DNA from: Chitinophagaceae bacterium
GTDB lineage: Bacteria; Bacteroidota; Bacteroidia; Chitinophagales; Chitinophagaceae
DNA length: 64,000 nucleotides
Direction of reading: 5' to 3'
NCBI GenBank assembly: GCA_947488765.1
Contig: CANLAE010000007.1
Span: forward strand, 62,001-126,000
The translations under genes and the position numbers were made by a program. Of this stretch, positions 53,545-55,533 are shown piece by piece. Numbering within the stretch: the stretch's first letter is position 1; every line of letters begins with the position of its first letter. Under the pieces are notes generated by a model. That model saw only the letters and a program-made list of their open reading frames with translations. It was not told the origin of the DNA and made no database searches.

Positions 53545-54651
53545 TTACTTCGTGTAGGCTTTCACCATATACACATAATCTTTTACATTCTTAATTTGAT
53601 GAACTCTGTTATCGCCTTTCAATGAATTAGTATTGTTTATCTTGATGCGAACATCCTGATCTTTCTTTTTAATTTCATCAACAACTTTATAAATATTTTT
53701 GCTCTTTATTGCAAAAGTTACACCATCTGCTTTTAATTGTTTGGTACTTAATACGCCAATAACCTCACCATTTTTATTCAATACAGGCCCACCACTGTTG
53801 CCGTGATTTGCATTCATTTGAATCTGACAACTCAATGAATCGCCATTGTAACCCGTTTCACCACTCAAATAACCAATGTTATACACCACTTCATTTCTTG
53901 GAAAATTCGGATATCCTAATGTATAAACTTCTTCACCCAAATCAAGATTGTTTTTTCTAAAAGAGTACGGCAAATTCTTAATAGGTGAATAATCTTCATC
54001 TTCAATTTTCAAAATTGCCAAATCCCTATTAATATCTTTAAAAGCAACTTTAGCTTTAAATTCCTTTCCATCATTATTTGAAATAACTGCAAATGTTGCA
54101 TCTTCTACTACGTGCGCATTCGTAACTAAATAACCATTTCCATCAATTAAAAAAGCACTACCGCCACTTTTAATAACAACATTTTCAGGAATTTTACTGG
54201 TTTTTATTTCATTGTTCAGTGCAGTAATCTTTCTTTCTTGCAGCTCAACTTTAGCACCTAACTGAGAAAGGTATTGTTGGTTTTGAGGAGCAAAATAAGC
54301 AACCAATCCACTAATCATAAAAGCAATAGCACCTCCTACAACAGCTGCAATTGCAGTAACTTTTTTGTATTTATTCCAGAAGAAAATCACTTTGGCATTT
54401 GATGAAGAAACAACGCCTTCATTGATTACAGATTCGGATAATAATTTTGAATGAACTTCATTTAATGTGCGCTTTAGATTCTTATTAGCAGAAAAATCTT
54501 CAATCTGATTTAAGAACATGGTATGTTCAACTACCAATTGGTCAACTTCAGGCACATTTTTTCTGTGTTGTTCAAAGAATGCTCTTTCTTCAGCATCCAT
54601 TTTATTGTGAATGTATCTTTCAATAGTTTGTAAAAGTAAAATATCGTCCAT
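53545..54651 (-). CDS. Membrane protein: putative anti-sigma N-terminus fused to a trypsin-like (S1C) serine protease
   Basis: A 368-residue single-pass membrane protein. Residues 1 to about 75 are cytosolic and helical (IERYIHNKMDAEERAFFEQH ... RTLNEVHSKLLSE) and resemble the N-termini of zinc-free anti-sigma factors. A membrane helix spans about 98-119. After a coiled stretch (LGAKVELQERKITALNNEIK) comes a HtrA-like protease domain with H180 in TNAHVVED, D210 in NRDLAILKI and S286 in GNSGGPV. No PDZ domain follows; the C-terminal 50 residues are basic and unassigned. It begins two bases after the sigma-factor stop, so the two proteins are made together. The anti-sigma assignment is inference from position and layout. 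Confidence 0.85.
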   Translation of the reverse strand: MDDILLLQTIERYIHNKMDAEERAFFEQHRKNVPEVDQLVVEHTMFLNQIEDFSANKNLKRTLNEVHSKLLSESVINEGVVSSSNAKVIFFWNKYKKVTAIAAVVGGAIAFMISGLVAYFAPQNQQYLSQLGAKVELQERKITALNNEIKTSKIPENVVIKSGGSAFLIDGNGYLVTNAHVVEDATFAVISNNDGKEFKAKVAFKDINRDLAILKIEDEDYSPIKNLPYSFRKNNLDLGEEVYTLGYPNFPRNEVVYNIGYLSGETGYNGDSLSCQIQMNANHGNSGGPVLNKNGEVIGVLSTKQLKADGVTFAIKSKNIYKVVDEIKKKDQDVRIKINNTNSLKGDNRVHQIKNVKDYVYMVKAYTK

Positions 54652-54653
54652 GG

Positions 54654-55220
54654 CTATTCTCCTATATTATATTGTGCGAAAAATAATTTTTTTAAACGCA
54701 TTAAGCATTTGTATTTCTGTGTTTTTGCATTGTCTGAGTTGGTATAACCAAATAATTCACTCAACTGTTGCATATCCATCTTCTTAATGTAAAACCCTTC
54801 TAATAAACTTCTGCAAGGCTCACCTAAACTAGATAATGCGTGTTCCATTATTTTAAAATCAGCATCTCTTTTGTAATGAATATCTAAATCATCCTCTACA
54901 GAAATCGTTTCTTCTAAATTATCCAACTGATTGCTATATTTTCCAATTTGTTGAAGCCTTTTCAACCATAATCTTCTGCAAATTGAATAGATGTAGGTAT
55001 TGATTTTGCAAGTCAATACAAAAGAATCAGTTTGAGCTTTTTCGTATAATGCAATCATCGATTCCTGAAAAATATCTCTTGCGTCGTCATAAGAACCATT
55101 GTTATTTAAAATAAATGATTGTATTGAAGCAAAATTATTTTTGTAAATAATTTCAATAATCTTACTATCATTTTCGGCTAACCCTTTTAATAATATTTGT
55201 TCAGACAATTCAGCTTTCAC
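54654..55220 (-). CDS. ECF-type RNA polymerase sigma factor
   Basis: A 188-residue sigma-70 family factor with only regions 2 and 4. Region 2 is near residues 20-85 (NNNGSYDDARDIFQESMIALYEKA), with the DNA-melting part in YIYSICRRLWLKRLQ. Region 4 is near 125-185 (ALSSLGEPCRSLLEGFYIKK, then MQQLSELFGYTNSDNAKTQK and YKCLMRLKKLF). The start is GTG at 55220. The downstream gene, two bases away, encodes the anti-sigma/protease fusion. Upstream, GGGTTAC-N16-GTATAAA on the minus strand looks like its own recognition site, which suggests autoregulation. Confidence 0.92.
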   Translation of the reverse strand: MKAELSEQILLKGLAENDSKIIEIIYKNNFASIQSFILNNNGSYDDARDIFQESMIALYEKAQTDSFVLTCKINTYIYSICRRLWLKRLQQIGKYSNQLDNLEETISVEDDLDIHYKRDADFKIMEHALSSLGEPCRSLLEGFYIKKMDMQQLSELFGYTNSDNAKTQKYKCLMRLKKLFFAQYNIGE

Positions 55221-55232
55221 AGATTATATTAC

Positions 55233-55262
55233 TTTATACATTTTAATCAATAAAAGTAACCC
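55233..55262 (-). promoter_or_regulatory. Candidate ECF promoter of the sigma-factor gene
   Basis: On the minus strand: GGGTTAC (55262-55256), 16 bases, GTATAAA (55239-55233), then the GTG start 12 bases later. The same two boxes with the same spacing precede the divergent lipoprotein gene. The architecture matches a -35/-10 pair and differs from the TTTG/TAnnTTTG consensus of the main sigma factor. Confidence 0.6.
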
Positions 55263-55304
55263 AACTAGCATTAAAAAAAAATTTATAAAATATTTTATCT
55301 TGTA

Positions 55305-55334
55305 GGGTTACCTTTTGTATAGTAATGGTATTAA
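55305..55334 (+). promoter_or_regulatory. Candidate ECF promoter of the small lipoprotein gene
   Basis: GGGTTAC (55305-55311), 16 bases, GTATTAA (55328-55334), with the ATG 31 bases further on. It mirrors the box pair in front of the sigma gene, differing by one base in the second box. A scan by eye of other start regions in the window found no further pair. Confidence 0.6.
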
Positions 55335-55365
55335 CATGAAATTACTAACATAAAAATTTAAAAAA

Positions 55366-55533
55366 ATGAAAAAAGTATTAGCATTAATCGCAATCGTAGG
55401 TTTTGTGGCTTGTAACAATGCAGAAACTAAAACTGAAACTGTAGATTCTACAAAAATTAAAGATTCAATGGCTGCTGCTGCGAAAGTAGATTCAGCTGCT
55501 GTAAAAGTAGATTCAGCTGTAAAAGCTAAGTAA
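55366..55533 (+). CDS. Small lipoprotein with KVDSA repeats
   Basis: A 55-residue predicted lipoprotein. The signal peptide MKKVLALIAIVGFVAC ends in a lipobox (GFVAC, Cys16). The mature 40 residues are charged and repetitive: ETKTETVDSTKIKDSMAAAA, then KVDSAAVKVDSAVKAK, with the unit KVDSA recurring, likely a helical or disordered spacer. I do not recognise a named family. A near-perfect promoter pair shared with the divergent sigma gene lies upstream and a strong terminator downstream, so this is a complete single-gene unit and a likely target of that sigma factor. Role in the envelope stress response is inferred. Confidence 0.8.
   Translation: MKKVLALIAIVGFVACNNAETKTETVDSTKIKDSMAAAAKVDSAAVKVDSAVKAK

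Follow-up and report, generated by a model that had tools for sequence, protein, structure and literature searches.

An ECF sigma factor paired with a putative anti-sigma factor fused to an HtrA-type protease in Bacteroidota

Why should the gene of an ECF sigma factor be followed at once by a gene whose product joins a membrane helix to a periplasmic serine protease, and how might such a protein hold and release the sigma factor? The question is raised by a locus in the window (the whole stretch of 64,000 nucleotides that was analysed) from a Chitinophagaceae bacterium with a 2.5-Mb genome in 37 contigs. The gene for the sigma factor (188 aa, GTG start; 54654..55220, minus strand) and, after a gap of 2 nt, the gene for a protein of 368 aa (53545..54651, minus strand) are encoded divergently from a small lipoprotein of 55 aa (55366..55533, plus strand), with a region of 145 bp between sigma and lipoprotein genes. 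The ORF coordinates agree with the layout given in a preliminary description of this DNA, which also took the three genes for one unit, a view strengthened by the promoter motif that is common to both divergent directions. Because the next gene downstream of the protease gene, a coaD-like gene, is convergent, the operon consists of two genes.

An old gene pair and its divergent lipoprotein

The protease protein was matched in 294 of the 296 Chitinophagaceae genomes, mostly over residues 1-367, and a search of 395 genomes of the class gave full- or near-full-length matches in nine further family-level groups; the module is present in ten such groups, Chitinophagaceae included. Adjacency was tested in Chitinophagaceae and in families f41, f29, f13, f50, f68, f42, f63, f18 and f24, and the sigma gene lies directly upstream of the protease gene in every locus with a contig long enough for the test, the sigma factors beside the protease being 40-96% identical in all families tested. 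The search was also reversed, the query across the phylum being the C-terminal 53 residues of the sigma factor alone. The protease gene is adjacent and on the same strand for all 29 sigma orthologues found in this way without using the protease (E <= 1e-19), the next matches drop to 3e-13, and one of these that was inspected (L291) is without the protease. Those genomes of the sister family f2 that were sampled gave no copy of the module. The preliminary description would have been undone by a pair confined to close relatives, and what was found is a pair adjacent across ten family groups. Judged by this distribution, the sigma-protease module is an old and specific unit of part of the class and no local accident. 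Three loci of family f68 (L060, L061 and L259) have an N-domain that is seemingly shortened or has an unclear start, together with an unusual sigma-protease spacing, and the sigma factor may be held differently there; in one of them, L259, the script did not resolve the reading frame of the protease.

The sigma factor of the window scores 56.2 bits against TIGR02937 (sigma70-ECF, cut-off 42.9), a model matched by 28 of 28 sigma relatives, and 19.3 bits against Pfam Sigma70_r2, which is under the gathering score of 24; on these profile scores it is a divergent ECF member. Its GTG start is the usual first codon among the relatives.

The divergent lipoprotein has the lipobox FVAC and is rich in Ala, Lys, Asp, Val and Ser. 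It matches the NCBIfam family PG1828_fam_lipo at 1.6e-10 and 41.6 bits, under the curated cut-off of 50, and two of its relatives score 40.1 and 44.6 bits. The divergent lipoproteins end in Lys in 66 of 84 cases, as does Lpp, a peptidoglycan-linked lipoprotein, and a link of the divergent lipoproteins to the cell wall is a guess by analogy. The lipoprotein could be an output of the system or a feedback ligand. PG1827 of Porphyromonas gingivalis W83 is the ECF sigma factor SigH, associated with oxidative stress (PMC4324044, PMC5607195). The window lipoprotein resembles PG1828, whose position beside PG1827 is taken from the locus numbers only, and PG1827-PG1828 may represent this sigma/lipoprotein pairing in a more distant form.

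The protease domain and the route of sigma release

What kind of protein does the second gene encode? An AlphaFold2 model of the window protein (m7f66476bcde3; mean pLDDT 81.7, pTM 0.57) is laid out as a helical N-domain, a long transmembrane helix, a stalk helix and a beta-rich protease. The protease domain (residues 159-330; 53662..54177, minus strand) is of the HtrA/DegS type: it matches Trypsin_2 of Pfam at 2.3e-26, and the top PDB match of its model is DegS delta-PDZ (2qf0, E 7.6e-13, TM 0.69), while its 74.7 bits against the DegS equivalog of NCBIfam, protease_degS, fall below the cut-off of 422.95. The intact catalytic triad announced in the preliminary description is found residue for residue, as H180 (54112..54114) in NAHVV at 178, D210 (54022..54024) in RDLAI at 209 and S286 (53794..53796) in GNSGGP at 284, all on the minus strand. 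All 136 aligned proteins long enough to include the serine have the triad, two rows of the alignment being cut by contig ends, and so do 45 of 45 rows of a diverse set; by this alignment the protease is kept catalytically intact in every complete copy examined. In several relatives (L023, L072, L078, L105 and others) the serine loop reads GYSGAP, GSSGAP or GNSGAP in place of GNSGGP, and the serine itself never changes; the loop variants may shift specificity or activation of the protease. A PDZ domain had been described as absent, and none was matched by Pfam. At the PDZ position the C-terminus is modelled as a helix plus a strand (residues 349-368, with R349 and Q352; 53548..53607, minus strand), which is conserved and of high confidence in the AlphaFold2 model and is a candidate regulatory element. 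Besides this gene, the window genome has a single clear HtrA-type gene, for a PDZ-bearing DegP-like protein of 514 aa (G000:C11:66786-67205; L001).

The one membrane helix of the earlier account corresponds to a single hydropathy peak at residues 98-118, a position shared by all 65 aligned proteins (helix at about residues 97-119; 54295..54363, minus strand). Among 45 diverse homologues, A102-A103 are the only residues outside the protease domain that never vary (45 of 45); the pair sits close to the end of this helix that faces the cytosol, in the context hydrophobic-Ala-Ala-Ser. The E. coli RseA helix has GVAAC at the matching place, and RseP cuts RseA after VAA. DegS, RseP and ClpXP act sequentially, the RseP cut exposing a degron (PMC10202637), and the XAA tails of RsgI transmembrane helices are recognised by ClpXP (PMC12203970). 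The window genome encodes one site-2 protease of family M50 (G000:C17). Because the Ala-Ala pair is invariant, RseA and RsgI offer parallels and the genome holds an M50 protease, we propose that the sigma factor would be released through this motif by regulated intramembrane proteolysis, with I101-A102-A103 (54343..54351, minus strand) as candidate site-2 cleavage site and ClpXP degron. The Ala-Ala pair could instead be kept for helix packing.

Which enzyme would then make the first cut? The candidate site-1 region is the periplasmic helical stalk (residues 126-151; 54199..54276, minus strand), an AlphaFold2 helix with low to moderate pLDDT, in which no conserved site-1 sequence was identified among the aligned homologues. 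Since an active-looking DegS-like domain is fused to the anti-sigma part in every copy, the simplest site-1 enzyme would be the protein itself, working in cis or on a neighbouring subunit. At rest, the N-domain (residues 1-75) would keep the ECF sigma factor at the membrane. On an envelope signal, in which the lipoprotein or misfolded envelope proteins may have a role, the periplasmic protease domain would cut the stalk, either in its own polypeptide or in a copy beside it; an RseP-type protease would cut the transmembrane helix at the invariant hydrophobic-Ala-Ala, and ClpXP would recognise the tail exposed by this cut and degrade the N-domain, so freeing the sigma factor. Free sigma factor would transcribe its own operon, making more of the inhibitor/protease and resetting the circuit, and would also transcribe the divergent lipoprotein gene and a few targets from promoters of the form GGGTTAC-N15/16-GTATTAA. 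On balance, we think it probable that sigma and anti-sigma factor form an autoregulated module at this locus, that the anti-sigma factor carries a periplasmic HtrA-type protease fused to it, and that release occurs by self-initiated regulated intramembrane proteolysis. The fuller reading is held more tentatively, as a real possibility: the ECF anti-sigma factor would serve as site-1 protease to itself, with sensor, inhibitor and initiating protease in one polypeptide, and Bacteroidota would have in it a widespread equivalent of sigmaE-RseA-DegS, to which a dedicated lipoprotein and a small regulon belong.

A stalk without a conserved cleavage site would also suit a protein that combines anti-sigma factor and effector, the protease serving mainly in quality control and the sigma factor being freed, without self-cleavage, by conformational change or by titration on substrate loading. 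HtrA proteases are quality-control enzymes, this one is made from the sigma factor's own promoter, as effectors are, and the protease could act on other substrates. We nevertheless regard such a protein as rather unlikely, for the invariant Ala-Ala of the helix fits proteolytic release better and a conformational signal passed through one transmembrane helix is harder to imagine. The presence of a second HtrA protein in the genome brings in a different division of labour, where proteolysis proceeds in the same way from a site-1 cut by another enzyme (for example the PDZ-bearing DegP-like protein, Prc or signal peptidase) while the fused domain does something else; signal peptidase is reported to cut RsiP of Bacillus thuringiensis at site 1 (PMC8844934). 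It seems quite improbable, because it leaves a catalytically intact DegS-like fusion in every copy unexplained. Self-initiated cleavage of the stalk is the reading that we prefer.

Sigma binding, promoters and regulon

The preferred reading requires a cytosolic domain that binds the sigma factor. The proposed sigma-binding N-domain (residues 1-75; 54427..54651, minus strand) consists in the AlphaFold2 model of helices at residues 3-14, 20-32 and 34-72. Its commonest weak Pfam match is zf-HC2, found for 8 of 38 members (best 7e-4) and below the cut-off for the window protein, so the sequence similarity to known anti-sigma domains is no more than suggestive; hhalign found no similarity to E. coli RseA. 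The sole matches of the N-domain profile against PDB sequences were nuclear-receptor helices (E >= 0.003), judged to be due to chance. A relative, L119, has sigma and protease genes in one frame with one stop codon between them, and for this reason the sigma factor, 7 linker residues and the N-domain could be predicted as one polypeptide. The prediction, made from 104 sequences (12 of them paired) and with the arrangement judged from pTM and pLDDT, reached pTM 0.81 and mean pLDDT 85.5, with the N-domain helices at pLDDT about 92-96 behind the 7-residue tether. A pTM of 0.81 for a chain of three parts that fold separately points to a joint arrangement predicted with confidence. Among the leading PDB matches of the joint model are the AlgU-MucA, sigmaE-RseA and RsbN-BldN complexes, at Foldseek E > 0.01 and TM about 0.28, a superposition so weak that the likeness of domain arrangement to known sigma/anti-sigma complexes is only putative.

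An interaction between the sigma factor and the N-terminus of the membrane protein had been suggested beforehand; the joint prediction and the strict gene pairing both speak for it, and on these two grounds we consider it highly likely that the N-domain binds the sigma factor. As with class I anti-sigma factors, the gene also lies directly beside that of its cognate ECF sigma factor, in 29 of 29 cases. The anti-sigma role of the membrane protein is well supported, the binding itself being predicted from models. The weak similarity to known anti-sigma domains would also suit an N-domain that does not bind sigma at all, the two genes being merely co-transcribed and the protease a member of the regulon; the strict adjacency, the confident joint fold and the combination of a single transmembrane helix with a cytosolic N-terminus, which is the typical anti-sigma layout, make this very improbable.

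Does the sigma factor control the locus that encodes it? Both divergent promoters carry a site of the type GGGTTAC-N15/16-GTATTAA, with N16 in the window: motif searches place GGGTTAC-N16-GTATAAA before the sigma-protease operon (55233..55262, minus strand) and GGGTTAC-N16-GTATTAA before the lipoprotein gene (55305..55334, plus strand), each a proposed sigma-dependent promoter. Of 136 related loci, 133 have the site before the sigma gene. With a relaxed pattern it precedes the sigma gene in 140 of 145 loci and has a divergent copy in at least 90 of the 145, and by script a small lipoprotein ORF follows 90 of 90 divergent sites; the motif is kept in the other families as well. Between the end of the -10 element and the GTG start of the sigma gene (window 55220-55239) there are about 12 nt, and 4-5 nt in some relatives; this would suit a leaderless sigma mRNA or, alternatively, a true start lying further downstream.

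Strict sites occur in 84 of 99 Chitinophagaceae genomes, more than 140 in all, against 14 matches of a reversed control pattern. The window genome has two at the locus and one other, and a search of it with a pattern allowing 2 mismatches gave no more sites than the reversed control. The strict site at C3:103070, before a fumarase-like gene or its neighbour, was not counted as part of the regulon. Distal sites, of which 20 were retrieved after selection by eye, are found repeatedly in front of orthologous genes for CBM48/AMPK-CBM-like proteins, for secreted proteins of ~145 aa and for proteins of ~48 aa. The CBM48/AMPK-CBM-like target protein (96 aa) matches PF16561 at 9.6e-8. When the genes were chosen by protein similarity, which makes the check unbiased, a site scoring >= 22 was found before 10 of 14 CBM48-like homologues, the maximum in 206 background segments being 11.7. 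The CBM48-like gene of the window genome is among the 10, with the site GGGTTACTTTTTTATGAAATGC-GTATATA. Its protein, of 138 aa, has a Lys-rich tail (G000:C1:276432-276773; L226, ORF 1773-1357 on the minus strand), and GGGTTAC...GTATATA stands just upstream. The secreted family of ~145 aa, which has no Pfam or NCBIfam match, lies behind a GGGTTAC promoter in several genera (L175, L178, L182, L185, L188-L190), and the protein of ~48 aa (MKNLKRLFFDKEVVSQIRSAK...), with no family match, does so in two genera (L176, L187). The recurring CBM48-like target hints at a link of envelope state to glycogen or starch.

By co-conservation of the promoters, the sigma factor very probably controls its own gene, its inhibitor and a small regulon, and autoregulation is well supported on these grounds. 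Autoregulation, the wider regulon and the invariant Ala-Ala pair go beyond the preliminary description. Together the two outward copies of GGGTTAC make up an inverted repeat (82%, 30 nt apart), as the operator of some other dimeric regulator might; but each copy is accompanied, at a fixed spacing of 15-16 nt, by a -10-like GTATTAA, and at distant genes the element occurs singly with this spacing. That these elements are such operators and no sigma -35 elements is scarcely credible. Gene pairing, catalytic conservation and promoter autoregulation are, from the sequence comparisons, strongly supported.

Relation to known systems

The closest comparison is the E. coli sigmaE-RseA-DegS-RseP system, which likewise has an ECF sigma factor, a single-pass anti-sigma factor and a DegS-type periplasmic protease, the sigma gene directly upstream of the anti-sigma gene and a hydrophobic-Ala-Ala motif in the transmembrane helix (GVAAC in RseA). 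Here, however, the roles of RseA and DegS would be united in one polypeptide with no PDZ domain, the operon has no RseB gene, a divergent small lipoprotein is present, and the N-domain is not alignable with RseA by hhalign. With DegS and other HtrA proteases the window protein shares protease fold, membrane anchor and catalytic triad, but in place of the PDZ domain it has the conserved C-terminal helix-strand, and it has an additional, predicted cytosolic sigma-binding domain.

The RsgI family of Clostridium thermocellum offers membrane anti-sigma factors with an XAA motif in the transmembrane helix and RseP and ClpXP steps, and RsgI9 has an extracytoplasmic S1C peptidase-like domain (PMC12203970). 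RsgI9 differs in that SigI is not an ECF sigma factor, in being an orphan without its own sigma gene in a Gram-positive host, and in that autocleavage takes place in a separate periplasmic domain, the peptidase-like domain being described as cellulose-binding (PMC12203970). No Pfam or NCBIfam match to an RsgI N-terminal domain was found in the window protein, whose partner sigma factor is of the ECF type. The Dma anti-sigma factors are likewise partners of ECF sigma factors in Bacteroidota, encoded beside the sigma gene and built of an N-terminal anti-sigma domain, a transmembrane helix and an unusual C-terminal part (PMC13088901); in Dma, this part is a disordered tether with an outer-membrane beta-barrel (PMC13088901), whereas here it is a soluble DegS-like protease of the HtrA type.

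In the papers searched, we found no ECF partner with a fused trypsin-like protease, although an earlier mention in ECF classification is possible, and no report of GGGTTAC in connection with sigma factors. The parts are known; what seems to be undescribed is their combination, in which an ECF anti-sigma factor has a catalytic HtrA domain that is fully conserved and comes with a promoter of its own and a lipoprotein dedicated to it. In Bacteroidetes, a recognisable class I anti-sigma domain is encoded close to only about 6% of the ECF sigma factors (PMC7406223), which leaves the control of ECF sigma factors in this group largely open. For one conserved sigma factor, the module provides a concrete and family-wide answer, consisting of a partner, a promoter, a candidate degron and a regulon. 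It would also allow the coupling of a cut outside the membrane to the release of a sigma factor to be tested in one protein, in which sensor, protease and substrate may coincide.
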